Virus record (IMG/VR): IMGVR_UViG_3300043427_002552
Location: 1-20,528 of that record
Source: a virus
Direction: 5' to 3' (one strand)
DNA length: 20,528 bases
The first letter of the stretch is position 1. Every line of letters starts with the position of its first letter. Shown here piece after piece: positions 1 through 14,863 of this stretch. Made by a program: the position numbers and the translations under genes. Under the pieces are notes generated by a model. It ran no database searches, was not told the origin of the DNA, and saw only the letters and a program-made list of their open reading frames with translations.

Positions 1-260
1 GTTCTACCACACTTAATAGCGACGGTACACTCACAGTTTCAACATTGAACGCAAGTACTGGTGGAACAATTGGCGGATGGACTATTGGTGCAAGTAGCTT
101 GACCGGCGGTTCTACTACACTTAATAGTAACGGCACACTCACAGTTTCAACATTGAACGCAAGTACTGGTGGAACAATTGGCGGATGGACTATTGGTGCA
201 AGTAGCTTGACCGGCGGTTCTACTACACTTAATAGCGATGGTGCGATTACGTGTGCAAAT
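1..260 (+). repeat. 108-bp tandem repeat in the tail-fibre gene
   Basis: The repeat period is 108 bases (36 residues). One full unit is 45-152; the next begins at 153 and is identical for 83 bases (45-127 equals 153-235) before diverging. Bases 1-44 are the end of an earlier unit with four differences from 109-152. Each unit encodes GGTIGGWTIGASSLTGG followed by a Thr/Ser-rich stretch, and a degenerate copy of the motif (AGTIGGWTI) follows the last unit. The array continues upstream of the window, so the total copy number is unknown. Confidence 0.92.
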
Positions 261-959
261 CTGACCGCTAATACCGCCGGTACCATCGGCGGTTGGACTA
301 TTACATCTACAGGACTTCAGGCGACAGGAAATGGATCTTCTAGAATAACTGGTAATGGATTAAACATTGACGCAAGTACAAATCAAGCAACTATAGGATT
401 GAGTGGTACTTATAGTGCCACGTTGACTGGAGGAACTGCTGCCGCAGGCATAACTCTTGGTACAGGAGGATCGGCAACAAAGTTGTTTGATAACGGTACA
501 TTAACTCTTGCTGGAGCAACACTCACTTATAGTGGAGGAAAATTTAATTTTGGATCCGGTGCAGCGACTGTTACGTGTGGTAGAATTGAAATTGGCTCTG
601 GTGGATTAGATTGTGCTGGAGGAGGGTCATTCTCTGGCGCCGTGGGGGCAGCATCGTTCAATAGCACATCATCCAGAAAATATAAGACCAATATTAAAGA
701 TTTGACAAATGGGTTAAATATGCTAAACAGATTAAGACCGGTTACATTTGACTGGAAGAATAATAAAACACATAATGACATTGGTATGATTGCCGAAGAA
801 GTAAATGAAATATTCCCAACCATAGTATATAAAAACTCTGACGGAGAGATAGAGGGTCTGGAATATGGAAAACTTGTAACCGTTTTGGCGGCGGCATTAA
901 AAGAACTATCAACTGAAGTTCAAGAACTAAAGCGGCAAATAAAAGAATTAAGAAAATAA
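1..959 (+). CDS. Tail fibre protein with C-terminal peptidase-S74 chaperone domain (5' partial)
   Basis: The reading frame is open from the first bases, so the true start lies upstream; the TTG at 45 is not taken as the start. The N-terminal part carries GGTIGGWTIG-type repeats rich in Gly, Ser and Thr, followed by more Gly/Ser/Thr-rich beta-type sequence. The last ~100 residues (from about base 660) match the peptidase-S74 intramolecular chaperone of phage tail fibres and endosialidases: an S-S-R-K-Y-K-T-N-I motif (canonical S-D-x-x-x-K-x-N-I), then PVTFDW, IGMIAEEV, P-T-I-V, LEYGKLV and a C-terminal coiled coil rich in Leu, Glu and Lys. In the family this domain trimerises the fibre and then cleaves itself off by a Ser/Lys mechanism. 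The Ser and Lys are kept here; the usual Asp after the Ser is Ser. It probably forms the distal receptor-binding fibre. The next gene starts 1 base after the stop. Confidence 0.9.
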   Translation, partial: STTLNSDGTLTVSTLNASTGGTIGGWTIGASSLTGGSTTLNSNGTLTVSTLNASTGGTIGGWTIGASSLTGGSTTLNSDGAITCANLTANTAGTIGGWTITSTGLQATGNGSSRITGNGLNIDASTNQATIGLSGTYSATLTGGTAAAGITLGTGGSATKLFDNGTLTLAGATLTYSGGKFNFGSGAATVTCGRIEIGSGGLDCAGGGSFSGAVGAASFNSTSSRKYKTNIKDLTNGLNMLNRLRPVTFDWKNNKTHNDIGMIAEEVNEIFPTIVYKNSDGEIEGLEYGKLVTVLAAALKELSTEVQELKRQIKELRK

Positions 960-960
960 T

Positions 961-1290
961 ATGGCATCAGGTTATACAGTAGACGTTGACGGAACACCCG
1001 TCGATTTGGATTCTATATTTAGACCAAAAAGCGCGGCTACTGAAAAAGCAGGTAATGTAAATTATAAAGTTTCTAACATAGATATTTCCAATAGATACGA
1101 AAAAATAACCGTGGAGGGACAGCAATGGGATAGAAACACGAATTTTTTGGCGTATGGCGGAGATTTGGCATCTATATTCGCCGTCACAGATGCGCCAACA
1201 CCAACGCCCACAAAATCGCTGACTCCATCTTTATCATTTTCGCCAACACCGTCAGAAACTCCACCAATTACACCGTCGGTTTCATATTAA
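961..1290 (+). CDS. Small virion-type protein with Pro/Thr/Ser-rich C-terminal tail
   Basis: This is a 109-residue protein that I cannot assign to a named family. Residues 1-76 look like a small folded domain (VDVDGTPVDLDSIF near the N-terminus, then YEKITVEGQQWDRNTNFLAYGGDL). Residues from about 77 to the end are almost entirely Pro, Thr and Ser, with repeated TPT/TPS units such as APTPTPTKSLTPSLSF. There is no signal peptide or membrane segment. It begins 1 base after the tail-fibre stop, so the two are almost certainly co-transcribed, suggesting a tail or fibre accessory protein. Such mucin-like tails are plausible O-glycosylation acceptors, and glycosyltransferase genes follow immediately; that link is inference. 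Confidence 0.7.
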   Translation: MASGYTVDVDGTPVDLDSIFRPKSAATEKAGNVNYKVSNIDISNRYEKITVEGQQWDRNTNFLAYGGDLASIFAVTDAPTPTPTKSLTPSLSFSPTPSETPPITPSVSY

Positions 1291-1314: not shown

Positions 1315-2481
1315 ATGAATATAAAAATACCATACAAAGAATTGGGAAACATATCAAACGCAGCATATGTTGCGGTAATTTTAGATAAAAATAATAATCC
1401 CATATACAGAAGAGATTATAGTCGCGTGTCAGACCCTTGGTTTTTTTCTAAAACAAAAACTAAGCTACCCATAGAAAATAAATTATACGAATTATGCGAC
1501 AGCGTAGTGTTTTATCCGTATTACAATAACACTGGTTGGGGTAATAGAATCGTGATAAAAAAAGAGAAAAACGAGTTGCCAGATAATAGTAATAAAAGTT
1601 TAGAATATATTAAAAACTCAGGCAAACCCGTAGATTTAAATTCGTTGAAAAAATGGATATTTACGGGCTCTAAATTTCCCATAAAAACTAATGTAATCGG
1701 CGATAAAAATTTGATATACTTTACCGCGTTTGGAAACAATGAATATATTGCCTTGTTAAAATTATTGCTAAAAGGATTGAAGAATCAACCGTATAGAAAT
1801 TTTGATATATTGTTTATAACAGATGCATCTACTAAACGAACCATAAATAAAATAGCCGATTTAAAACATTTTAATGTAGATTTTCACGTAATTAAACCTA
1901 TAACTGACCCCGTGCGTGCATCAATGCAAAAATTAAAAATACATGAATATAAAAAAATAAAACAATACAAAAAGATATTGTTTTTAGACATGGATATATT
2001 GGTGCTCGGGAATTTATCCAAAATCTTCGATGAAGAGATTAGGCCGAATAAGTTGTATAGCGGAATACAAAAGTTTGAAATGTCTATGCATAATACTGCG
2101 TTTCATTGTATTAACGAATATACCAGTGAATACTTGGATTTCTTTTCCAAGCGCGGAATATTTCCATTTAACGCCGGTCAATTTATGTTTTTGAACACAC
2201 CGACTATGATAAAGCATTTTAAGCATATAGACAAATTTGCACATAAATGGAAAGGTCCGTTTTTCTTTGAGCAAAGTTTTCTTAATACATATTTTAATGT
2301 ATTATGTATGTCGGATGTATTTAAATTCAAAAATGAATTCGGATTTATATCAATAAACATGAATGATACTGGTTATAAACCAAACGAGGACACTGTGTTT
2401 GTGCATTTTATGGGGAGCATAGGAAAGCCTGATGGGAAATTAAAATTTATTAAAAAATATTATAAAAGTTTAATTGCGTGA
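1315..2481 (+). CDS. GT8-family-like glycosyltransferase with an unassigned N-terminal domain
   Basis: This is a 388-residue protein. From about residue 125 it has the GT-A fold order of GT8 enzymes (glycogenin / LgtC type): a start like NLIYFTAFGNNEYIALLKLL, the metal-binding D225-M-D227 in LFLDMDILVLGN, FNAGQFMFLN with the conserved N-A/S-G, and the C-terminal H364-x2-G367-x3-K371-P372, which matches the HxxGxxKPW signature. These point to a retaining transferase that moves a sugar from a nucleotide donor; the sugar and acceptor are unknown. Residues 1-120 are extra relative to the family and not recognised. The gene is markedly AT-rich (9 G+C in the 60 bases 1921-1980) compared with the terminase gene. 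It overlaps the next gene by 4 bases. Confidence 0.85.
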   Translation: MNIKIPYKELGNISNAAYVAVILDKNNNPIYRRDYSRVSDPWFFSKTKTKLPIENKLYELCDSVVFYPYYNNTGWGNRIVIKKEKNELPDNSNKSLEYIKNSGKPVDLNSLKKWIFTGSKFPIKTNVIGDKNLIYFTAFGNNEYIALLKLLLKGLKNQPYRNFDILFITDASTKRTINKIADLKHFNVDFHVIKPITDPVRASMQKLKIHEYKKIKQYKKILFLDMDILVLGNLSKIFDEEIRPNKLYSGIQKFEMSMHNTAFHCINEYTSEYLDFFSKRGIFPFNAGQFMFLNTPTMIKHFKHIDKFAHKWKGPFFFEQSFLNTYFNVLCMSDVFKFKNEFGFISINMNDTGYKPNEDTVFVHFMGSIGKPDGKLKFIKKYYKSLIA

Positions 2482-3242
2482 AATTTACCATAATTACTTC
2501 GCTATACGGCACATTACCTGTAGTCAAGGAGTGCATCGATAGTTGGCTTCCTTTGCCGCCGAATTGGAATTTGATTGTATATAACTCGGCGGTGTCCTCC
2601 ATCGATGGTACTACAGACTATATTCGTCAAAAGCAAAAAGAGCATAATTTTTTGTTGATAGAAGACGGAAAGACGAGGTCACATACTTCGGCTATAAAAA
2701 CAATAATACCAAGCATTGATGGAGATTGGGTATTACATCTGGATTCAGACGCCAAGTTATTAAATAAGTTTTTTTTCTTGTGGGCAGAAGCTACCGCAAA
2801 AAGCAAAAAATATAAAGTTTATGGCAAAGTAGATAAAAGAATATCGGCAAGAATTGCTATCCGAGAACGGTATATTCACAATAATACAGTGAATGAGATG
2901 TATTTGCCACGCTGTCATCAATGGTTAATGATGTTTGAGAAAGAATACTTCATTCAAAAAAATATAAGTTTTGACGACATAATAATGACGGCAAAAATAA
3001 CATCTCATGGTAAAAAGTTAGCATCACAGGATGGAACAAAAAATTACGACCACGGTGATGAAATATTCATATTTGGAGACACAAGCTGGCAATTGTTTTG
3101 GGAATCTATTGGAGACGATTTGTTTTGTAGTTTTCCAGACGAGGCATATAATTGCTGGAAACATCTCAATAATCAATCATGTAAGTGGGATAGAGTAAAC
3201 AGAGAACTTATATTAAGTGGAAGTTTTCATAGAGTTTCTTGA
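2478..3242 (+). CDS. GT2-like (GT-A fold) glycosyltransferase
   Basis: This is a 254-residue protein starting at a GTG whose last bases overlap the upstream TGA (GTGA junction), indicating translational coupling to the GT8-like gene. The N-terminus FTIITSLYGTLPVVKECIDSW resembles the first strand of GT2 enzymes, and DGDWVLHLDSDAKLL holds a DxD metal/nucleotide-binding motif (D89-S-D91). The rest shows no membrane segment, so it is probably a soluble cytoplasmic transferase. Length is normal for a single GT-A domain. Acceptor and donor cannot be read from the sequence. A 60-base AT-rich gap follows, so this gene may end the transcript that begins with the tail fibre. Confidence 0.75.
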   Translation: MKFTIITSLYGTLPVVKECIDSWLPLPPNWNLIVYNSAVSSIDGTTDYIRQKQKEHNFLLIEDGKTRSHTSAIKTIIPSIDGDWVLHLDSDAKLLNKFFFLWAEATAKSKKYKVYGKVDKRISARIAIRERYIHNNTVNEMYLPRCHQWLMMFEKEYFIQKNISFDDIIMTAKITSHGKKLASQDGTKNYDHGDEIFIFGDTSWQLFWESIGDDLFCSFPDEAYNCWKHLNNQSCKWDRVNRELILSGSFHRVS

Positions 3243-3302: not shown

Positions 3303-6197
3303 ATGGACAAATTCACACAACAGATCATAGAGCAGTTATATAACGAAATCGTAAATGCCAATCAGGTATATGCTATATATCCTGGTCGCTTCCATCCAGC
3401 AGGACCACATCATTACAAGGCATATAAGTATCTTGCCGATAAGTTTGGGGTACAAAATACATTTGTTGTTACATCAGACAAGGTTGAATTGCCAGATAGT
3501 CCATTAAGTTTTGCTGAAAAAAAAGCAGTATGGATAAAATACGGTGTTCCTGCCGATAAAATAATACAGGTTAAAAACCCGTATGTTGCTACAGAAGTAT
3601 TGGATATGCTTCCCGAAAATTCTGCGGTTGTGTTTGGATTTGGCAAGAAAGATTCTGAAAGATTTAGTGTAGGCGGTGTCAAAAAGGACGGTTCTCCATC
3701 ATATCTTCAGTTCTATGAACAGAACAAAAATGATCTACAAGACCTTACTAAGCACGGCTATCTTATAATTATTCCTCATTTTTCTTTAAAAGTTGATGGT
3801 AAGGAATTAAGCGGCACAGAAATACGCAATATGATTGCCGCTAATCCAAACAAAGAAACCTTCGATAAGATATTCGGGTGGTATGATCCAAAGATAGCAC
3901 AACTACTGTCTGATAAATTTAAAGAAGCGTCAAGTTATGTGCCGCCAGAAAAGCCAGTCAAGAAAAAGCTAAAAGAAGGTGGCAATATGTTTGATGTTGA
4001 TGCTTCAATGGTCAAACGTGAAAATCTTGATTCAACCATCCAAAAAGTTCTAAAAGATAATGGACTTGGTAAAGTACAATACTCAAAAATCGGAAATTTT
4101 AGCAAGCCATTGTTGGGGGACATTGATATTGCCATTGATACCAAAGATATGTTGAAGTTTTTAAAACTTCCGCCAACTGCCGACAAAGATACGTTATTTA
4201 AAGAGATAGAAGCAAAGTTTCCAGGCGGAAAAACTGCCAAAGGATTATATCAGTTTCATTTGCTTGGTAAAGCAGACAATCAACCATTTATAAACAAAGA
4301 CGGTAGTGAAGATGATACCAAAGAACCATTTGTTCAGGTTGATGTCATGTTGGGCGTTAGAGGTTGGAGAGAAAAGTTTTATTCAGGTGCACCATCGAGC
4401 CAATATAAGGCAAAGTTCAGAAACTTGTTTATTTCTGAAATATTGTCCAAGATTATAGAAGATGCTGGACCGGGTGGGTTGAAGCAAAAATATCTGCTTT
4501 CTCCAGCAGAAGGATTCTTCTTGCAAAAATTTACTATTGACGCGAAGGGAAAGCGTAAAGAAGTAAGCAGAGAACTAAAGTCCACCGATATGGATTTTGT
4601 AGCAAAGTTCTTGTTTGGAGAAGATAAGACATTTGCAGATATAGATACATTTGAAAAGGTGTATGCTTTATTCAATTCGAAGTCATTCAAGTTCCCACAG
4701 TTTAAGAAAGAAATATTGGATGCATACAAGGAAAATTTGGCAAAGAGCCAAGCAGCGGAACCAGATCTTCTTCATCCAAAGCTGGAAGAAGCTAACAAGC
4801 TGTCTATTCAGCGTTTTTCAGGTGCCAATGAAATGACCGACGCCGAGTTTTTGAATTTTCTACGTCGTATTCAGCCACTGGTAAAACAAGGTAAAATGGA
4901 TTTGAGTGTGTCTGACAACGCATCTGTAACAGAAAAGTTGGACGGATCTCCGTGTAAATGGGGATTAAATGCTGCTGGTCAATTTTTTGTAGAATCGGCA
5001 AACAGCGGCGAAGTAACTATAGCAAATGCCGAAAAGTTGAACAATCCATTCACCGTTCACTTTTATGAAGCTATAAAGTTTTTGAATAGCTATAAGCCAT
5101 TTCAGGCAAAGTTACAAGCAGTCAAAAAGAAGCACGGAGCATTTAAAGTTACTTCCGAAATGTTTCCGGTATTGACTCATAAAGGAGACGATTTGGGAGA
5201 CATTGTATTTGCATCAACTAAATACAACAAATCCAAGCTTGGAAACAAGGGTGCATTTGTATGCTTTAACGCCACCTGCGAAAAGCACGGTGATGAAGGT
5301 TCAGATGAAATTCTTGATATGGTTGAAAACACATCCGATCCCGAATGGAAGATATATAACATCAATAAGCACGGTACTTTAAGCAGAGAAGGACTGGTAT
5401 TTAATATTGCTGGAATACAAAAGCTCGTATCTGACCCAGCCAAACTGGCTCAAGCGGAAACACTACTTAAGTCAAGAAAAGATAGTCCAGAAAAAGATGC
5501 ATTAAAGAAAATCATACGCAACCTCAAAGACCAGATGCAGGATATATTAAACAAATATGCTGAACGCATTAATACATTCTTGAGTTCAGACGCCTCAAGA
5601 AAATATCCAGTAGAAGGTGTTGTATTAAAAATCAATCTACCGGACGAACCTGTATTTATAAAGGGAACATCTGAAATATTCCACAAAATTGCTGAAAAGA
5701 CTTGGGGAACTCGTAAGGCGGTTGGTAATGCCGAAAAAGTGTTTGATGGAGCATTTCTTACCAAGGTTCTTGGTATGACAACCGGTCACGCCGCTACACT
5801 AAACAAGAATATTGCAGCAGCAAAAGCAAAGGTCGGAGATGTTACAGATGAAGTATCTGCTAATAAAGTTGCGTTAGAAGTATATAATACACTAAAGGCT
5901 CAAGGTATTGATGCTTCTCCTACCGCCGTAAAAACTCGTGCCAATGAAGTTATAGCTGCTGCCAAGAAAGAGTTTGCGGATATACAAGCCAAATGGGAAC
6001 AGGTAAAAGCTACAGGCGAAGTTGACCCAGACAGTACGTCTAAAACCGAAAGCCAGATAAACTTCTTACAGCAAAAGCTAAATAATATATCTCAAGCGGT
6101 TCTTACAGACAAGTACAGCGGAGAGGCATATATTGTATATCTTTTAAGACTTTTTATAGATAAAAGATTACGCAGTAATGCAGAAACCGGAGACTAA
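3303..6197 (+). CDS. Multidomain cytidylyltransferase-like / PolX-like / KxDG ligase-like protein
   Basis: This 964-residue protein has three nucleotidyl-transfer modules. Residues ~20-210 resemble the cytidylyltransferase/NMN-adenylyltransferase fold: YPGRFHPAGPHH (residues 26-37, where HxGH is expected) and SGTEIR (170-175, matching the ISTEIR-type motif). Residues ~230-480 resemble a DNA polymerase X nucleotidyltransferase: KIGNFSKPLLGDIDIAI with D273 and D275, a third acid D347 in VQVDVML, and a YSGAPSSQYKAKFRN segment. Residues ~495-800 look like a covalent nucleotidyltransferase ligase: motif I E-K545-L-D-G-S, an E619 motif-III-like SEMFP, and motif IV E771-G-V-V-L-K776. The C-terminal ~170 residues are helical. 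A plausible role is gap-filling and sealing in DNA or RNA repair, with the first domain perhaps handling NAD or another nucleotide cofactor; that is inference. A zinc-ribbon gene follows. Confidence 0.72.
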   Translation: MDKFTQQIIEQLYNEIVNANQVYAIYPGRFHPAGPHHYKAYKYLADKFGVQNTFVVTSDKVELPDSPLSFAEKKAVWIKYGVPADKIIQVKNPYVATEVLDMLPENSAVVFGFGKKDSERFSVGGVKKDGSPSYLQFYEQNKNDLQDLTKHGYLIIIPHFSLKVDGKELSGTEIRNMIAANPNKETFDKIFGWYDPKIAQLLSDKFKEASSYVPPEKPVKKKLKEGGNMFDVDASMVKRENLDSTIQKVLKDNGLGKVQYSKIGNFSKPLLGDIDIAIDTKDMLKFLKLPPTADKDTLFKEIEAKFPGGKTAKGLYQFHLLGKADNQPFINKDGSEDDTKEPFVQVDVMLGVRGWREKFYSGAPSSQYKAKFRNLFISEILSKIIEDAGPGGLKQKYLLSPAEGFFLQKFTIDAKGKRKEVSRELKSTDMDFVAKFLFGEDKTFADIDTFEKVYALFNSKSFKFPQFKKEILDAYKENLAKSQAAEPDLLHPKLEEANKLSIQRFSGANEMTDAEFLNFLRRIQPLVKQGKMDLSVSDNASVTEKLDGSPCKWGLNAAGQFFVESANSGEVTIANAEKLNNPFTVHFYEAIKFLNSYKPFQAKLQAVKKKHGAFKVTSEMFPVLTHKGDDLGDIVFASTKYNKSKLGNKGAFVCFNATCEKHGDEGSDEILDMVENTSDPEWKIYNINKHGTLSREGLVFNIAGIQKLVSDPAKLAQAETLLKSRKDSPEKDALKKIIRNLKDQMQDILNKYAERINTFLSSDASRKYPVEGVVLKINLPDEPVFIKGTSEIFHKIAEKTWGTRKAVGNAEKVFDGAFLTKVLGMTTGHAATLNKNIAAAKAKVGDVTDEVSANKVALEVYNTLKAQGIDASPTAVKTRANEVIAAAKKEFADIQAKWEQVKATGEVDPDSTSKTESQINFLQQKLNNISQAVLTDKYSGEAYIVYLLRLFIDKRLRSNAETGD
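3973..3989 (+). promoter_or_regulatory. Possible internal ribosome-binding site and in-frame ATG
   Basis: AGAAGGTGG lies 4 bases before an in-frame ATG at 3987 (Met229). That ATG falls on the boundary between the cytidylyltransferase-like and PolX-like domains. Starting here would give a 736-residue PolX-ligase protein. The site matches a Shine-Dalgarno sequence better than anything before the main start at 3303. It could equally be a chance result of the Lys-Glu-Gly-Gly linker codons. Confidence 0.3.
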
Positions 6198-6901: not shown

Positions 6902-9487
6902 ATGAAGATTTTATATATTGCTCCGCATCTATCAACTGGCGGTTGTCCGCAATACTTGCTTAAGAAGATACAAGTATTGGTAAAAGAGCACGAAGTATAT
7001 TGCGTGGAATATTCTAATCATGGCGGATTTACCGTACAAAGAAATCAAATCAAAGAAATACTAAAGGATAGATTCTTTGAGTTGGGCGAGAACAAGATGC
7101 AAGTAATGGATATTATAAATAAAATAAATCCAGAAGTTGTACATCTTGAAGAAATGCCGGAATATTTTATGGATGGTAATCTTGCCATTGAATTGTATTC
7201 AAAGGATAGAAAATACAAACTGATAGAAACTTCTCACGATAGCAGTTTTAATCCACAGAGTAAAACAATGTTTCCCGATAAGATATTGTTTGTAAGTAAA
7301 TATCAAATGGAAACTCTTAAATCTTTGGATGTACCTATGGATGTATGCGAGTATCCAATAGTAATAAACCCAAGAAAGCCGCGTGAAGAAGCACTAAAGG
7401 TGCTTGGATTAGATCCGAACAAGAAACACGTTATAAACGTTGGGTTATTTACGCCAAGAAAAAATCAGGCAGAAATAATAGAATATGCCAAGCAACTTAT
7501 TAACTATCCTATTCAGTTTCATTTTATAGGAAATCAAGCAGACAATTTCAAGTTTTATTGGGAACCTTTGCGGAAAGATTTTCCGCCAAATTGTACGTGG
7601 TGGGATGAACGAAAAGATGTACATAACTTTTATCAGGCAGCAGATCTATTTCTATTTACTTCTCGCGGCACAAATAACGACAAAGAAACCAGCCCACTTG
7701 TAATACGTGAAGCAATATCATATAACATACCATCGTTGATATACAACTTACCCGTGTATCTTGGTATGTATGACAAATATGAAAATATCGAATATTTGGA
7801 TTTTGACTCAAACAAAAACAATATAATTAAAATACTGAAAAAATTAAATATGCAAATTGATGATGCGAAACTATTTAGAGAGCAATTTTATTCAAAAGAA
7901 GATGTAAAATTTAATGTTGCATATGATAATACTCAAAATAAAATTTTATTTTCAACAAATACGTTGGTAGAGGATTTGCTTGTTTCTATAAAAGAATTAG
8001 ACTCTCGTGCCGTTGTATGGTCTGCTCATTATGATTCCATGCCAGCAAATTCTGAATTTTGGATTATACCTACCCCAAAAGATTTTATAGATTTTGAAAA
8101 AGATCCTTATATAGGAGGTCTTCTTGTCGAGTTTTATAGCAAAGAAAAATTAATAGATAGTAAATCTATAAGAATAAAGCCTGCAATACCAAATAAACAT
8201 CGGTCAACATTGAAAAATAATAAAGAGCCGATGTATATGAATTATACAGAATTTTTTGTGGATAGAATATATGATGAGTTTGTTAAAAACAAAAAATTTG
8301 ATACTGTTGTGGACGTTGGGGCAAATATAGGTCTATGGACCGAGTACATATTACACTCGGCTAAATGTAAAACAGTTTATGCGATTGAACCTAACAAATC
8401 TGCATTAGAAGTTTTGGAAAAATCATTTGGAGATAATGTAACAGTAGTTAAAAAAGCACTATCCGACGTTGATGGGCATATTGAATTTTTCGTGGATAGT
8501 GAGAATTCGACAGTATCTTCTATCGCAAATGTAAATAAAAATGATAAAGGATATGCAGTTGAATCAATAAAGTTCAAGACATTTATCAATCAATATAGTA
8601 TAAAAAAGATAGATTTAATGAAAGTGGATATTGAATCGGGGGAATATCCTCTATTTTCTTCGTTGGATGATTCTGATATTGGCATCATAGATAATATTTT
8701 GATGGAATATCATACGCTAGGTGGGAGGACATATGAAAAAGATGCGATGCAAATAATAAACAAGTTGAAGTCGCACGGATTTACGGTTTCTATTAAAAAT
8801 ATGCATCCCGCTGGCGGATTTATATATGCTACAAAAAACGCTAATGTAGTGGACAAAAGAAATGATGCAATGATTTCATTTTTGAATATAAATAAATGTC
8901 CAGACAAAAGAGATATCGCCGCGATTGTGAATAAATTATTTCCTGATGGAACTGGTGTAGAAATCGGTGTGTTGCGAGGAGATTATTCAAAAATTATATT
9001 AGAGCGTTGGAAACACGGTCAAATGTATCTGATAGACACTTGGCGACATTTGAGTGAATATGTTGATATGAATGGACAAGATGATAAATATCATTACGAT
9101 TGTATTGTAAAAACTTGTGAAAATATAAAGCCTTGGCAGAATAGAGCACACATGATTCGAATGGATAGTGCATTGGCTGCAAATTTATTTCCAGACGAGT
9201 TTTTTGACTTTGTTTATATTGACGCGGACCATTCATATGATGGAGTCGTGCGAGACTTGAAAGCATGGTGGCCAAAAGTAAAAAGGGGCGGGCTATTTTG
9301 CGGAGATGACTATATTCCACAAGATGGAGATATATGGCTTACAATTGAAGGACAACCGCCAAAGTATGCAGGAAAGTTTGGTGTAAGAAAAGCGGTAAAC
9401 GAGTTCACAGCCAAAAACAATTTAAAATTATATGAAACCACAAACGAGCCTTATTGGAAACAGTGGTATACATTTAAACCTTTTTAA
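6902..9487 (+). CDS. Fusion: GT-B glycosyltransferase, FkbM methyltransferase and a second class I methyltransferase
   Basis: This is an 861-residue three-module protein. Residues 1-~325 resemble a GT4-type GT-B transferase: start ILYIAPHLSTGGCPQYLL, donor-side INVGLFTPRKNQ, and E262-x7-E270 in KETSPLVIREAIS. Residues ~440-660 match FkbM-type methyltransferases: SAM-binding VDVGANIG (470-477), the ribose-binding acid E496 in IEPN, and KVDIESGEYPLF (D576, E578). Residues ~665-861 are another SAM-dependent methyltransferase with GVEIGVLRG (E687), YIDADHSYDGVVRDL, WWPKVKRGG and CGDDY. FkbM enzymes usually O-methylate sugars or small hydroxylated substrates, so the protein could transfer a sugar and then cap it by methylation. 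Base composition is uneven along the gene, with the centre more AT-rich, consistent with assembly by domain shuffling. No Shine-Dalgarno close to the ATG. The next gene begins 5 bases after the stop. Confidence 0.85.
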   Translation: MKILYIAPHLSTGGCPQYLLKKIQVLVKEHEVYCVEYSNHGGFTVQRNQIKEILKDRFFELGENKMQVMDIINKINPEVVHLEEMPEYFMDGNLAIELYSKDRKYKLIETSHDSSFNPQSKTMFPDKILFVSKYQMETLKSLDVPMDVCEYPIVINPRKPREEALKVLGLDPNKKHVINVGLFTPRKNQAEIIEYAKQLINYPIQFHFIGNQADNFKFYWEPLRKDFPPNCTWWDERKDVHNFYQAADLFLFTSRGTNNDKETSPLVIREAISYNIPSLIYNLPVYLGMYDKYENIEYLDFDSNKNNIIKILKKLNMQIDDAKLFREQFYSKEDVKFNVAYDNTQNKILFSTNTLVEDLLVSIKELDSRAVVWSAHYDSMPANSEFWIIPTPKDFIDFEKDPYIGGLLVEFYSKEKLIDSKSIRIKPAIPNKHRSTLKNNKEPMYMNYTEFFVDRIYDEFVKNKKFDTVVDVGANIGLWTEYILHSAKCKTVYAIEPNKSALEVLEKSFGDNVTVVKKALSDVDGHIEFFVDSENSTVSSIANVNKNDKGYAVESIKFKTFINQYSIKKIDLMKVDIESGEYPLFSSLDDSDIGIIDNILMEYHTLGGRTYEKDAMQIINKLKSHGFTVSIKNMHPAGGFIYATKNANVVDKRNDAMISFLNINKCPDKRDIAAIVNKLFPDGTGVEIGVLRGDYSKIILERWKHGQMYLIDTWRHLSEYVDMNGQDDKYHYDCIVKTCENIKPWQNRAHMIRMDSALAANLFPDEFFDFVYIDADHSYDGVVRDLKAWWPKVKRGGLFCGDDYIPQDGDIWLTIEGQPPKYAGKFGVRKAVNEFTAKNNLKLYETTNEPYWKQWYTFKPF

Positions 9488-9492
9488 ATATC

Positions 9493-10311
9493 ATGGTCAT
9501 CTTTCTATACAGTGATAAAAACTGCGAGTATCAGGCAATATCGTGCATTAAATCCTTAACTCACAAAATAACTGACGATGTTGTCGTTTTGTATTACACT
9601 ATAGGATTTGATAGTGCGTTTGAATTCAAGAATTTGAGAAAAATAAGAATTGAACCAAAAGCATATTTTCCAACTTTTCATTATTATAAATCCGAGTTGT
9701 CGTTGTTGACAATGCAGCTATATCCTAACGATTATTATTTCTTTACGGATACAGATGTGTTGTTTTCTCGCAACTTCAATTTCGCCGATCATAGATATAA
9801 CACACCATATCCTATGGCAAGTTTTGGTCCGCACGAATTTCCATTTATTTGGGAAGAAGTTAATGGTACTCGTATAATATACGACGAAAGCAAAACAATG
9901 AAGTACTTTGGAGTAACAGAAAGAAGCATGAGATACTGCTGGTCTTGTTTTTACACATTCAATCCAGATTGTAAGGACTTTTTTGAAGAGTATGTATCTA
10001 TGTGTCAAAATCAGTATTTGATGCAAAGACGAAAGCACTTCTTTCCATATGCGGACGAGACTGCGTTCAATGTTTGCTTGTGGAAAAGAAATGCAACAAA
10101 AAATTTAGGGTTCTCTTTTGTAAATACCCATTTATTGGATACCGTCAAGTTGGTTGAAGAAAGAAGAGCAAAGAATGCACACATAGAAGGTAATGTGGAT
10201 GCTTTTGGACAAAATTGGCAATACGTGGAAAATCCTGATAATGTATTGCTGTATCATGGGTTTAAAAGTCCGCACGATATTGATCCAACACTGGAATATT
10301 TAATAAAATAA
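9493..10311 (+). CDS. GT-A-type glycosyltransferase
   Basis: This is a 272-residue soluble protein. The N-terminus VIFLYSDKNCEYQAISCIKSL is the first strand and helix of a GT-A fold. YYFFTDTDVLFSRNF contains D86-T-D88, the expected DxD. Further family-like points are CWSCFYTFNP, YADETAFNVCLW (a D-E pair typical of the catalytic region) and a late LLYHGFKSP, which may do the job of the C-terminal His motif of GT8-like enzymes. I cannot place it in one CAZy family; GT8-related or an unclassified phage family is most likely. It sits 5 bases after the preceding fusion gene and 25 before the next, within the sugar block. Confidence 0.7.
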   Translation: MVIFLYSDKNCEYQAISCIKSLTHKITDDVVVLYYTIGFDSAFEFKNLRKIRIEPKAYFPTFHYYKSELSLLTMQLYPNDYYFFTDTDVLFSRNFNFADHRYNTPYPMASFGPHEFPFIWEEVNGTRIIYDESKTMKYFGVTERSMRYCWSCFYTFNPDCKDFFEEYVSMCQNQYLMQRRKHFFPYADETAFNVCLWKRNATKNLGFSFVNTHLLDTVKLVEERRAKNAHIEGNVDAFGQNWQYVENPDNVLLYHGFKSPHDIDPTLEYLIK

Positions 10312-10336
10312 AATTAGGTATTTTGAAACGACGCAT

Positions 10337-11116
10337 ATGATTTATATCTGGAAAGATGAATATCCTGTGTTTTTGGAGTTGGCAAATCTTATATCAAGCG
10401 AATTGGATATGCCTAACGAAATCACAAATGATTTGAGCAAAGAAGGAACGTGGATAATATTTTTTGAATCTTTTATAAATCATCGGCATATATTTGAAAA
10501 GAGAAAATATATAATGGTTCAAACCGAAAATATACTTGAATCGGTGCGCCTTGATTCGCCTAACCTTAGACAAGAATATCAAAATTTTTTACGCAATGCG
10601 TATGCGGTGTGGGATTATACAAAAAATTTTAGACTAGGTTATTCTAAATATTATCAAATTCAATACGAACAGTCTAAAGATATGGATGTATTTTTTTATG
10701 GAAGTATAAACCCACGAAGAAAACATATCTTGGACCAAATACCAAACTTATCGACAGTCTCTGCTACTTCAGATATTAAGGTTGATTTTTTTCCTGCATT
10801 ATGGAATTATGTTCGAAGAAGCAAAATAGTCTTGTGCATAAATTACTACGAAAACTCAAACACGGACGTTATACGCCTTGCCCCGCTTTTGACAAATCGT
10901 ACATTTTTTATAGCAGAAAAAACTATCGACCCCTCTCACAATAACCGTACAGAATATGTAGTATCAGATTATAATAATATTCCAGCACTCTGTAAATACT
11001 ATCTAGAAAATCCAAAAGAAAGACTAAAATATATAGAAAGTGGATATAACTATATAAAAAATAATCCAATATTGTTGCCGGATATTTATTCAGAGCGAAA
11101 TATCAATTACGTATAA
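10337..11116 (+). CDS. Putative GT-B-like glycosyltransferase (divergent)
   Basis: This is a 259-residue protein recognised only weakly. The order of elements recalls CgeB-like or other single-chain GT-B glycosyltransferases that have lost much of the N-terminal domain: KYIMVQTENIL, then AVWDYTKNF, a second-domain start DVFFYGSINPRRKHIL, and a conserved-looking ALWNYVRRSKIVLCINYYE followed by DVIRLAPLLTNRTFFIAEK. The last section (ALCKYYLENPKERLKYIESGY) resembles the C-terminal helix of such enzymes. No membrane segment. The next gene begins 5 bases after the stop. Its position among clear glycosyltransferases supports the call, but a non-catalytic role is possible. Confidence 0.55.
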   Translation: MIYIWKDEYPVFLELANLISSELDMPNEITNDLSKEGTWIIFFESFINHRHIFEKRKYIMVQTENILESVRLDSPNLRQEYQNFLRNAYAVWDYTKNFRLGYSKYYQIQYEQSKDMDVFFYGSINPRRKHILDQIPNLSTVSATSDIKVDFFPALWNYVRRSKIVLCINYYENSNTDVIRLAPLLTNRTFFIAEKTIDPSHNNRTEYVVSDYNNIPALCKYYLENPKERLKYIESGYNYIKNNPILLPDIYSERNINYV

Positions 11117-11121
11117 AGGTT

Positions 11122-13239
11122 ATGAAAATCATAAACATCAATCCCGGTCTATTACCCATTCCTCCAAATGGCTGGGGAGCAGTTGAAAAAATCATATGGG
11201 ACTACCATCAAGAAATGCTTAATATTGGTCTTCGCAGCGAAATCAGATATACAGACGAAGTGCAGTACGATGATAGTTGTGTGGTACATGTACACGTAGC
11301 AAATTTAGCAAACTTGCTACACGAACGTGGCATACCTTATATTTTTACTATTCACGATCATCACGCATATTTGTACGGCAAAGATTCCCAGCTATTCAAA
11401 GAAAATCTAAAAGCGATTGAGAACAGCGTATTTTCACTTTCTCCTTGCAAATATCTTGTGCCATACTTTGGCAGCAAAAAACTTAGATACTTCAGTCACG
11501 CTGTAAATACAGATATTTTTACATTCAATAATCGCCAGAGACACAAAAACTTGAAGTTGCTTTGTGTAGCGAACAACGGATATGCATATGACCAGAGCAT
11601 AGATAGAAAAGGATTCAAGATTGCAATACAGGCAGCAAAGACGCTCGGCTTACCAATTACGATTGCTGGACCAAGAAACAATGACAATTTCTTCAAGACG
11701 CTTGAGCCAGAACTAAACGGTTATACTGGTCTTACTAAGTTATACGATCTTGATGAAAAATGGCTAACTCATTTGTACAATGAAAATGATGCGTTTCTTC
11801 ACTTTTCGGAACTTGAAGCCGGTCATCCTAACCTTACATTACTTGAGGCTATGGCGAGTGGATTGCCAGTCATAGGTACATTCGAAGAAGATACATACAA
11901 CGGTATGGCAGTATGCAAACGAGATTTGGACGAGGCAATTGCTGCAATAAAGAACGTTGACGAAAACTATGATAAATTTAGAGCAGATGCACTCGCGAAC
12001 GCAAAATCAAATTCATACAAAAACAGAGTTCATGAATTAGTTGGGTTGTATAGTGAATATAGAGAACGTATTTTTGGAAATAAACTCATCGAGTGCTACT
12101 CAAACTGTGAAAAAGTAGTCAAGGAAGCAAAAAATAACATTTTGATCAATTTTCCACAAGGCCCAAAGGTAGAAATACTTGGACCAATAAGCAGAAAACA
12201 TAAGATAAAGTTTATTGATACAGACAAAAATCAGATAGTATATGAAACAATCATCGGAAATAATATGTGGGCTACAAGCAGCATAAAATATTTCTGTAAA
12301 TGGAAGATAGAAGTATACGAAATGGTTGGAGAAAACTGGGAGAGGCTGATACACACTCATTTATATAACGCAGAGGGTAAAGACGTAAAAGTTATACTTG
12401 ATACAGAAAGTGTGGGAGATCTTATTGCGTTTATTGGGTCGGTTGAAGAGTTTAGAAAACAACATAAATGTAAAATGCATTGTGTTGTATTTTCTAAGCC
12501 TTTGCGCGAGTTATTTAAAAAGTCGTATTCAAATATCAACTTCTTGGATAAAAACCCAAGCGATGATGCATATTATGCAACATATAACATAGGATATTTT
12601 GAGGAATGGAAAGACCGACTAATTACGAACCCGAAAAGATTATCTCTTCCGCACATAGCATCACAAATACTTGGATTTGGAAACAAGGAGTTTAAACCAA
12701 TACTACAGTATGATAAGCCTTCTCCACCAAACAAAAAATATGTGTGTATATTTACACAGAGTACTGCTCAATCAAAATATTGGAATAATGAAGACGGATG
12801 GAAAACTGTAATAAATTATTTGAACAAAAAAGGATATGAAGTATGGTGCATAGACAGATATAGTTCTTTTGGAACTAAAACAAAAATGAACTATATCCCG
12901 CCCGGCGCAATCGATAAGACAGGCGATTATAGTCTTGAAATAAGAATGCAGCAAATACACAACGCCGAGTTCTGCATCGGATTGAGTTCTGGATTAAGTT
13001 GGCTTACTTGGGGAGTAAATAAGCCCGTCATACTTATTAGTGGATTTACAGAAGAATTCAATGAATTTGAAACGCCATATAGAGTAATCAACAAAAATGT
13101 ATGCAACGGCTGTTGGAACGATGTTAATTGTAAATTTGATAAAGGCGATTGGTTGTGGTGCCCAAGAAACAAAGATTTTGAATGTACCAAGAAGATATAT
13201 CCACAAAATGTTATAGATGTTATAAATAAAATAATATGA
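11122..13239 (+). CDS. Fusion of a GT4 glycosyltransferase and a TibC/AAH-type O-heptosyltransferase
   Basis: This is a 705-residue protein. Residues 1-~320 are a GT4-type GT-B transferase: NPGLLPIPPNGWGAVEKIIW at the start and a donor motif with E232 and E242 in EAGHPNLTLLEAMASGLPV. Residues ~345-705 match the autotransporter O-heptosyltransferase family (TibC, AAH): QSKYWNNEDGW, YEVWCIDRY, CIGLSSGLSWLTWGVNKPV, SGFTEEFNEFETPYRVIN, and a C-terminal cysteine cluster C661-x2-C664-x15-C680-x7-C688 (C670 lies between). From memory, TibC binds iron through a C-x2-C-x15-C-x19-C cluster; the first three spacings agree. Known members transfer heptose from ADP-heptose to Ser of repeat-containing adhesins and are single-domain. 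The donor here is not proven to be heptose. The stop overlaps the next ATG by 4 bases. Confidence 0.86.
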   Translation: MKIININPGLLPIPPNGWGAVEKIIWDYHQEMLNIGLRSEIRYTDEVQYDDSCVVHVHVANLANLLHERGIPYIFTIHDHHAYLYGKDSQLFKENLKAIENSVFSLSPCKYLVPYFGSKKLRYFSHAVNTDIFTFNNRQRHKNLKLLCVANNGYAYDQSIDRKGFKIAIQAAKTLGLPITIAGPRNNDNFFKTLEPELNGYTGLTKLYDLDEKWLTHLYNENDAFLHFSELEAGHPNLTLLEAMASGLPVIGTFEEDTYNGMAVCKRDLDEAIAAIKNVDENYDKFRADALANAKSNSYKNRVHELVGLYSEYRERIFGNKLIECYSNCEKVVKEAKNNILINFPQGPKVEILGPISRKHKIKFIDTDKNQIVYETIIGNNMWATSSIKYFCKWKIEVYEMVGENWERLIHTHLYNAEGKDVKVILDTESVGDLIAFIGSVEEFRKQHKCKMHCVVFSKPLRELFKKSYSNINFLDKNPSDDAYYATYNIGYFEEWKDRLITNPKRLSLPHIASQILGFGNKEFKPILQYDKPSPPNKKYVCIFTQSTAQSKYWNNEDGWKTVINYLNKKGYEVWCIDRYSSFGTKTKMNYIPPGAIDKTGDYSLEIRMQQIHNAEFCIGLSSGLSWLTWGVNKPVILISGFTEEFNEFETPYRVINKNVCNGCWNDVNCKFDKGDWLWCPRNKDFECTKKIYPQNVIDVINKII

Positions 13240-14369
13240 AAAATATGATACAACTGTTCAAAGTTTACATGAGTCAAAATGCCAAAATTGAGGTTGGAAA
13301 AGTATTAGACAGTGGTTATATCGGTCAAGGTCCAAAGGTAGAAGAGTTTGAATGTGCGTTGAGGTCGTTTTTAAATAACGACAGAGTTCTTACTCTAAAT
13401 GCCGGAACATCCGGATTGCACCTTGCTCTTCATATGCTCAAAGCGAACGGTAGCATCAAAAATGATGACGAAGTCTTGGCTACTGCTCTTACGTGTACGG
13501 CGTCAAATTGGCCAATATTAGCTAACAATCTACGTATAAAATGGGTAGATATAGATCCAAAAAATTTAAATATGGATTTGGATGATTTGGAAAGAAAGAT
13601 TACACATAAAACAAAGGCAATAATTGTTGTACATTGGGGAGGATATCCAGTAGATTTGGACAGATTAAAAGCTATACAAGAAAAAGCATATAATATTTAT
13701 GGATTTAGACCGGCAATAATAGAAGACGGAGCACATGCGTTTGGTACAGAATATAAAGGAAAAAAATTAGGAAACCACGGTAATATTGTAATGTATAGTT
13801 TTCAGGCTATAAAACATATAACTTCAGTAGATGGTGGGTTATTGGTTCTACCCAACCAAGAATTATACCGCAGAGGAAAATTACTAAGATGGTATGGTAT
13901 AGACAGAGACGGAAATCGAAAAGACTTTAGATGCGAAGCCGACATTGAAGAGTGGGGATTTAAGTTTCATATGAATGATGTATGTGCTACCATTGGTCTA
14001 GAAAACTTGAGATTTGCGGATAGCATTATAGGAAAGCATAGAAATAACGCAAAATTTTATGACAATCAATTGGTAGATACTTCTGGTCTTACTCTTCTAG
14101 AAAGGAATAAAGATTGTAATTCGGCGTTTTGGATATACAGTATGCTGGTTGAAAACAGAGACGATTTTTATCGTTATATGAAAGAATGCGGGATTGTTGT
14201 ATCGCAAGTACACGAAAGAAATGATAAGCATACCTGTGTGAAAGAATATCGCTCCGCATTACCAACTTTGGATAAAATAGTACCAAAATTGGTGTCTATT
14301 CCGGTTGGATGGTGGGTGACTGAAGATGACCGTCAATATATCGTCGATTGTATCAAGAAGGGTTGGTAA
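13236..14369 (+). CDS. DegT/DnrJ/EryC1/StrS-family sugar aminotransferase
   Basis: This is a 377-residue PLP enzyme of the family that aminates nucleotide-linked keto-sugars. Family motifs appear in order: SGYIGQGPKVEEFE near the N-terminus, LNAGTSGLHLAL for the phosphate-binding region, the acid-rich IIEDGAHAFGTEYKGKKLG, and SFQAIKHITSVDGG with the Schiff-base Lys at K193. Length is normal for the family. The ATG at 13236 overlaps the upstream TGA (ATGA); an alternative Met lies 3 codons in (13245). With the following acetyltransferase it could make an N-acylated amino-sugar donor, but no dehydratase or epimerase is in the window, so the keto-sugar precursor must come from the host or from elsewhere in the phage. 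Confidence 0.9.
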   Translation: MKNMIQLFKVYMSQNAKIEVGKVLDSGYIGQGPKVEEFECALRSFLNNDRVLTLNAGTSGLHLALHMLKANGSIKNDDEVLATALTCTASNWPILANNLRIKWVDIDPKNLNMDLDDLERKITHKTKAIIVVHWGGYPVDLDRLKAIQEKAYNIYGFRPAIIEDGAHAFGTEYKGKKLGNHGNIVMYSFQAIKHITSVDGGLLVLPNQELYRRGKLLRWYGIDRDGNRKDFRCEADIEEWGFKFHMNDVCATIGLENLRFADSIIGKHRNNAKFYDNQLVDTSGLTLLERNKDCNSAFWIYSMLVENRDDFYRYMKECGIVVSQVHERNDKHTCVKEYRSALPTLDKIVPKLVSIPVGWWVTEDDRQYIVDCIKKGW

Positions 14370-14863
14370 TGAACCTATCTTTCAGAAAAATAACCGAAGC
14401 CGACCTCGCGTTTTTAAATGAAACAAGGAATATTTATGCAGAAGAGTTTTTGCACGATAGTAGAATATTCAGTTTAGACGAAACAATCCATTGGTTCAAA
14501 ACAACAAATCCAGATTATTGGATGATAAGAGACGATGATATAAATGAAACGGTGGGATATTTCAGACTATCAAATTATTCTAAAGCAAATAAAAACATAT
14601 ACATCGGGGCAGATATAGCACCTAAGTTTAGAAGAAAAGGATATGCTACCGCTGCATATAAAAAATTTATTCCATTGCTCTTTGGATTTTATGACTTGAA
14701 CAAAATAAGCCTAGAAGTTTTGACCACGAATACTAATGCTATTAAATTATACGAAAAGTTGGGATTTATAAAATATACAGAAATGGGTAAGGATGTATTG
14801 AAAAAAACGGGTGTTGTGGGTTCTATCAAAATGTATATACTGAGTTCTCGGTTGGTAAAATAA
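14369..14863 (+). CDS. GNAT-family N-acetyltransferase (likely amino-sugar N-acetyltransferase)
   Basis: I place the start at the ATG at 14369, which overlaps the previous stop (TAATG) and has AAGAAGGG (14355-14362) 6 bases ahead; a TTG at 14348 in the same frame is less likely. The 164-residue product is a single GNAT domain: FRKITEADLAFLNETRN at the start, the acetyl-CoA-binding RRKGYATAAYKKF region, and the C-terminal NAIKLYEKLGF. The sequence is of the RimJ/RimL/PseH type. Directly after a DegT aminotransferase, the natural role is acetylating the new amino group of a nucleotide-sugar, as in PseC/PseH or FdtB/FdtC pairs. A protein acetylase cannot be excluded. Confidence 0.85.
   Translation: MNLSFRKITEADLAFLNETRNIYAEEFLHDSRIFSLDETIHWFKTTNPDYWMIRDDDINETVGYFRLSNYSKANKNIYIGADIAPKFRRKGYATAAYKKFIPLLFGFYDLNKISLEVLTTNTNAIKLYEKLGFIKYTEMGKDVLKKTGVVGSIKMYILSSRLVK

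Follow-up and report, generated by a model that had tools for sequence, protein, structure and literature searches.

What might a protein O-heptosyltransferase of the TibC/AAH type do in a phage, joined to a second glycosyltransferase in a single polypeptide? Direct O-heptosylation of serine is, to our knowledge, a route so far known only for bacterial surface adhesins. The gene that raises the question lies at positions 11122-13239 of a virus record of 20.5 kb (20,528 nt), the whole of which was analysed and is called the window here. PHROG tail-fibre/baseplate matches mark the end of a tail fibre upstream of the gene, and a T4-like terminase and portal are found downstream by PHROG. The source of the fusion gene is a freshwater T4-like phage. 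Judged by terminase, its closest relatives in culture are Microcystis phage Mel-JY01 (53%), also the single cultured phage found to bear a TibC, and Flavobacterium phage immuto (51%). A cyanophage origin was considered through psbA and rejected, the gene being absent from 15 of 15 records. Genes of the bacterial autotransporter heptosyltransferases (BAHT) usually, though not obligatorily, have a partner autotransporter gene next to them. Pfam and PHROG annotation found no autotransporter partner gene in the window; the neighbours are phage genes and sugar genes:

3..959, + strand: tail-fibre end lacking its 5' part; Ser/Thr-rich GGWTI repeats of 36 aa (PHROG)
961..1290, + strand: 109-aa protein with a Ser/Thr/Pro-rich C-terminal tail, PTPTPT/SPTPS (sequence)
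1315..3242, + strand: two genes, GT8-like and GT2-like glycosyltransferases (Pfam matches)
6902..9487, + strand: cassette partner of 861 aa, GT4 plus FkbM methyltransferase plus class-24 methyltransferase (Pfam/NCBIfam)
9493..11116, + strand: two cassette genes, of 272 aa and of 259 aa, the latter with a weak glycosyltransferase hint (no or weak Pfam match)
11122..13239, + strand: GT4-TibC fusion gene, 705 aa, ATG start (open frame)
13236..14863, + strand: movable module of a DegT-type sugar aminotransferase (250 bits) and a GNAT acetyltransferase (60 bits)

Related cassettes also contain homologues of the 272-aa protein. A further window protein, of 964 aa (3303-6197), begins like a nucleotidyltransferase and carries a KLDG motif resembling that of RNA ligases; Flavobacterium phage immuto has, near its terminase, a protein annotated as an NMN adenylyltransferase.

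Within the fusion gene, we distinguish the following parts:

11122..12075, + strand: GT4 domain, residues 1-318 (near-cut-off Pfam, fold, invariant motifs)
12130..12381, + strand: TibC-type N-terminal beta-barrel, about residues 337-420 (model strands 339-414, weak TibC_1st Pfam match)
12382..13236, + strand: heptosyltransferase catalytic domain, about residues 421-705 (TIGR04414, TibC alignment)
12865..12894, + strand: beta-hairpin thumb, residues 582-591 (two strands in the model)
13102..13185, + strand: iron-finger cysteines C661, C664, C680 and C688 (aligned to TibC C339, C342, C358 and C370)

That this protein is a GT4 glycosyltransferase fused to a TibC/AAH-type O-heptosyltransferase is close to certain. 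Residues 331-704 match the TIGR04414 model hepto_Aah_TibC with 351.9 bits against a curated cut-off of 200, and the solved TibC chains 4rap and 4rb4 match the C-terminal half with E about 1e-70. The LPS heptosyltransferases (RfaC/RfaF) were rejected as the best family, scoring 23 bits or less against 352 for TIGR04414. Chance or artefact is ruled out by the 352 bits together with conservation in about 50 fused loci. Over its whole length the protein has counterparts in viral contigs at 62-97% identity, and the 735 kb phage LR756501 carries an end-to-end homologue of the fusion at 39% identity.

An AlphaFold2 model of the 705-aa protein was built from 40 aligned sequences. Its mean pLDDT is 89.5 but its pTM 0.58, so that each domain is well predicted and their mutual placement poorly. 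The modelled C-terminal half overlays TibC residues 21-387 (Z 43.3, 2.2 Å over 360 residues), and this predicted overlay, starting at TibC residue 21, takes in the beta-barrel. For residues 1-318, Pfam GT4 scores fall narrowly below their own cut-offs (26.9 against 27 and 24.4 against 26.4), so that filing this half as GT4-like rests on its fold, a full GT4-type GT-B fold in the model with Z up to 27.5 over about 300 residues. Structural matches include 6kih, 9v0l, BshA, MshA and the peptide-binding form of SdgB (Z 25). The motifs H78-D79-H80, R162-K163-G164, E230 and E232...E242 are invariant in 13 relatives. The phage half thus shares with GT4 enzymes such as BshA, MshA, the sucrose-phosphate synthase tll1590 and SdgB a GT-B fold over residues 1-318 and the HDH, DRKG and glutamate motifs; it differs in being compact and in having E-x9-E in place of the usual E-x7-E. 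The first-pass annotation, made from the letters alone, had placed a TibC/AAH-family half behind a complete-looking GT4 domain in a phage. The terminase, portal and fibre genes, the above-cut-off match to hepto_Aah_TibC and the GT-B heptosyltransferase arrangement seen in the overlay on TibC all agree with it.

In TibC, the catalytic base is D110, the donor is contacted by T226, K230, R286 and W305, and P300 selects the epimer, a position at which AAH has S294 and accepts both ADP-heptose epimers (PMC4358343). The alignment with TibC shows that the tested catalytic, sugar-binding and iron-site residues are all kept in the window protein: D433 corresponds to D110, T548 to T226, K552 to K230, R608 to R286 and W627 to W305, and S622 stands at the P300 position, as in AAH. 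Across 89 phage domains the equivalents of D110 and W305 and the four cysteines are invariant (89/89), and most donor-binding residues stay conserved over this divergent clade. The TibC iron ligands C339, C342, C358 and C370 form the pattern C-x2-C-x15-C-x11-C (PMC4358343), and the iron finger predicted from the window sequence reads C661-x2-C664-x15-C680-x7-C688. The first spacings are therefore those of TibC, as first noticed. The last does differ, but the x19 first given for TibC should be x11, which makes the loop shorter by four residues and not by twelve. A spacing of x15/x7 is the commonest among phage domains (44/89), while bacterial domains have x15/x11 in 87 of 90. Since all four cysteines are invariant and x7 is common in phages, the spacing is no sign of a broken metal site, and the suggestion that metal binding may be changed is not borne out.

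The thumb departs further from TibC. There, the tip residues F265-V266 make the contact that builds the dodecamer, and F265D and V266D abolish activity (PMC4358343). The window protein has T-K at these positions, so that a contact needed for TibC activity is absent, which counts against the reading we prefer below. Two hydrophobic tip residues occur in 42 of 91 bacterial domains and in 4 of 89 phage domains, and none in 68 of 89 phage and 24 of 91 bacterial domains. Judged by these tip residues, the phage enzymes likely form an oligomer different from the TibC ring. Compared with TibC/AAH (BAHT, TIGR04414), then, the window protein has the family score, the beta-barrel and GT-B fold, iron finger and thumb hairpin of the model, the catalytic Asp, the Thr/Lys/Arg/Trp donor residues and the four cysteines in common; unlike them, it sits in a phage, behind a GT4 domain and in a separate clade, with x7 in place of x11, a non-hydrophobic tip and no autotransporter partner.

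We scanned IMG/VR with the phage alignment and obtained at least 598 encoding stretches, from which 80 loci were retained; a scan of GTDB genomes gave 429 encoding stretches, again with 80 loci retained. Sampling began from phage patterns and covered bacterial diversity in part. A maximum-likelihood tree was built from 102 thinned domains; a fully supported branch in it separates 56 of the 57 viral domains from the 45 bacterial ones. The lone viral exception, L175 (9833-11137), sits among Lentisphaerota, and its contig could be a prophage or bacterial DNA filed as viral. Among 398 Pseudomonadota genomes, 8 have TIGR04414 members above the cut-off, with frames of 408-569 aa and thus none of GT4-fusion size. 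The first-pass annotation had treated the phage fusion as a departure from bacterial, single-domain enzymes. The fusion in a phage is real, but this premise was too narrow, as the window protein is a member of a large phage clade. The literature searched, from which subscription journals were largely absent, names no BAHT enzyme in a phage.

The pairing of the two activities was surveyed in 101 phage loci with 106 TibC-type ORFs. Fusion to a GT4 domain is found in 59 of the 106, comprising 52 with the GT4 type of the window protein (4 of these also fused to FkbM) and 7 with the type of its GT4-FkbM neighbour. A further 28 lie directly 3' of a GT4 gene; the two genes overlap or are at most 2 nt apart, with an overlap of 3 to 28 nt in most pairs. 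The same models, built on phage sequences, detected GT4 in 0 of 80 bacterial TibC loci. About 10 changes of fusion state are needed on the tree, so fusion and separation have recurred. This repeated coupling argues that both activities act on one product, and the earlier idea that one protein attaches a first sugar and extends it with a second gains independent weight from the phages that keep the halves as separate, overlapping genes. Other arrangements were also seen. In L024:9047-11140 the TibC domain is fused to the GT4 type of the GT4-FkbM protein, a case of GT4 swapping. Giant multi-domain proteins of 1314-1891 aa (L161:2440-7113, L162:2059-7734, L173:7142-11086 and L187:1115-5110) combine a domain of the 272-aa type, a divergent TibC-like domain, in some cases FkbM, GT4 and a full TibC domain. 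In L125:9020-11410 and L126:1652-4081, two copies of the N-terminal barrel region of TibC type stand between the GT4 and catalytic domains.

Taken together, we consider it probable that the fusion is a two-headed phage enzyme for protein O-glycosylation, placing heptose on Ser of a phage protein with repeats and extending it through the GT4 half. What is catalysed, from which donor, on which acceptor and in what order is here read from family, fold, pairing and context; protein O-heptosylation by this enzyme is likely on the strength of sequence and model. The TibC-type half would take heptose from an ADP-heptose donor, which in this phage group the host appears to supply, and would attach it to serines in the repeats of a phage protein, most probably a tail fibre. 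The N-terminal GT4 half would add a second sugar onto that heptose, and the cassette neighbours, namely the other glycosyltransferases, FkbM-type methyltransferases and the DegT/GNAT amino-sugar module, may lengthen or cap the glycan.

A phage-borne ADP-heptose pathway in the window's group was considered and rejected, as 12 records of this group gave no match to the HldE adenylyltransferase domain. Neither HldE transferase nor GmhA nor an HldE-type kinase was found in the nearest long relatives of the window within their contigs, so their donor would be host-made. Other TibC-bearing phages do carry pathway genes: LR756504 encodes a phosphoheptose isomerase GmhA (251.5 bits, above cut-off), and LR756501, which has the full fusion, an HldE-type heptose-7-phosphate kinase scoring 306 bits, below its cut-off of 345. 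A separate observation concerns record G013, where L204:2698-10867 is a nucleotide-sugar cluster of an aminotransferase, a reductase, epimerases and a degenerate HldE-like kinase, the last being the sole heptose-pathway candidate in that cluster; separate GT4, FkbM and TibC genes lie elsewhere on the contig.

Within repeats, TibC modifies Ser and not Thr (PMC4358343). The phage TibC loci encode collagen-like fibres of Gly-X-Y triplets in which Y is mostly Ser (2667, followed by Asn with 525) and X most commonly Thr or Ser, and the start of such a fibre follows the TibC gene at a distance of 46 bp in L193 and 10 bp in L191. The enzyme of L023 shares 64% identity with the window protein, and the same contig encodes a fibre of 3412 aa that contains the triplet G-[ST]-S 462 times. 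We then reversed the search and looked in viral contigs for seven codon triplets of the form G-[ST]-[ST], without regard to TibC. TIGR04414 was present in 16 of 38 multi-match repeat records and in 0 of 50 controls (Fisher p 1.5e-7), the controls being 16 records with repeated Gly-Pro matches and 34 others. Control contigs are GC-richer than the repeat contigs. For contigs of 60 kb or more the counts are 11/13 and 0/17. A local reading, confined to short stretches, gave 8 of 120 repeat loci against 0 of 120 AT-rich control loci. In Flavobacterium phage immuto, in which TibC was not detected, no such fibre triplets were found in 49 kb with tail genes. A shared phage lineage may partly explain this association. 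The conserved GT4-TibC pair and the frequent serine-rich fibres suggest that these phages coat their own fibres with sugar, and we favour the phage's own fibre as the target, with somewhat better than even confidence. No G-[ST]-S fibre lies in the window itself. The fibre it does encode is truncated and built on a different type of repeat, a 108-base tandem repeat, so the acceptor of the window enzyme is not seen directly. The tail fibre at 3..959 is a possible acceptor and the 109-aa protein at 961..1290, for which no relatives were found in the phage collection, a possible second one.

The genes around the enzyme change faster than the enzyme itself. The GT4 type of the 6902..9487 protein is present in 69 of 101 phage TibC loci and FkbM in 59. 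The DegT/GNAT module (window 13238-14855, 1.6 kb) is absent with clean ends from the near-identical phages L001, L002, L019 and L021, whose DNA identity to the window is 90-98% in the fusion gene and about 94-97% downstream; some upstream glycosyltransferase genes also differ in these four, where upstream sequence exists. The outer part of the presumed glycan would thus change quickly while the GT4-TibC enzyme stays, and so quick a turnover among near-identical phages suggests selection on the appearance of the glycan.

The cassette might instead modify the host surface, decorating its LPS or surface proteins in the course of infection, for instance to keep other phages out; this is the main rival, though we judge it unlikely. 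Heptose is an LPS core sugar, and GT8-, GT4- and GT9-type enzymes serve LPS synthesis. Pelagimyophages offer a parallel as T4-like phages with glycosyltransferases beside tail fibres in a hypervariable region and rfaE among LPS-related genes; in the accessible portion of that paper BAHT enzymes go unnamed, and its authors favour modification of host LPS (PMC7029224). The window enzyme, however, falls in the protein-modifying branch (352 bits for TIGR04414 against 23 for LPS heptosyltransferase I), and it retains the beta-barrel and iron finger, with which TibC handles its protein substrate and assembles (PMC4358343). The co-occurrence with Ser-rich fibres, with the TibC gene sometimes directly upstream of the fibre, also speaks against a host target.

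Somewhat less likely still, the two halves could act at different steps or on different acceptors, the GT4 half initiating on protein or working elsewhere and the TibC half adding heptose later. GT4 enzymes of the GtfA/SdgB type modify Ser directly, and the peptide-binding form of SdgB is among the structural matches noted above, both of which count for initiation by GT4. Yet the GT4 half has a compact 318 residues against about 490-500 in SdgB chains, so that no extra peptide-binding module is evident, and the characterized BAHT members initiate on Ser (PMC4358343). The lacking dodecamer contact raises the further idea that the TibC half survives as a relic with a structural or regulatory role, leaving the GT4 half as the active one. 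The polar tip of the window protein, the prevalence of such tips in phages and the loss of activity in TibC F265D and V266D would fit; conservation of the catalytic base and most donor-binding residues over a divergent clade, and the 24 of 91 bacterial members that likewise lack a hydrophobic tip, make this very improbable. We therefore retain the reading of a phage protein-O-glycosylation enzyme that attaches heptose and extends it.

Phages that glycosylate their own particles have a precedent in mycobacteriophages (Che8 and relatives), whose own glycosyltransferases are thought to decorate their own virions (Freeman et al., 2023, as cited in PMC12619734 and PMC11256854). Those glycans are reported on capsid and tail-tube subunits, whereas fibres are the target proposed here, and the accessible portions mention no BAHT-type enzyme. 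Whether the phage sequences as a whole form a large separate branch of protein O-heptosyltransferases with a GT4 extender, glycosylating serine-rich collagen-like fibres and rapidly exchanging modules for the outer sugars, we hold to be an even matter. If true, Ser-O-heptosylation known from bacterial adhesins would be widespread in phages, with an acceptor that can be named and tested, and the fusion would provide a soluble two-step enzyme for O-glycosylation. It would also explain the glycosyltransferase islands near fibre genes and give a reason for Gly-Ser-rich collagen-like fibres, which would serve as scaffolds for sugars.
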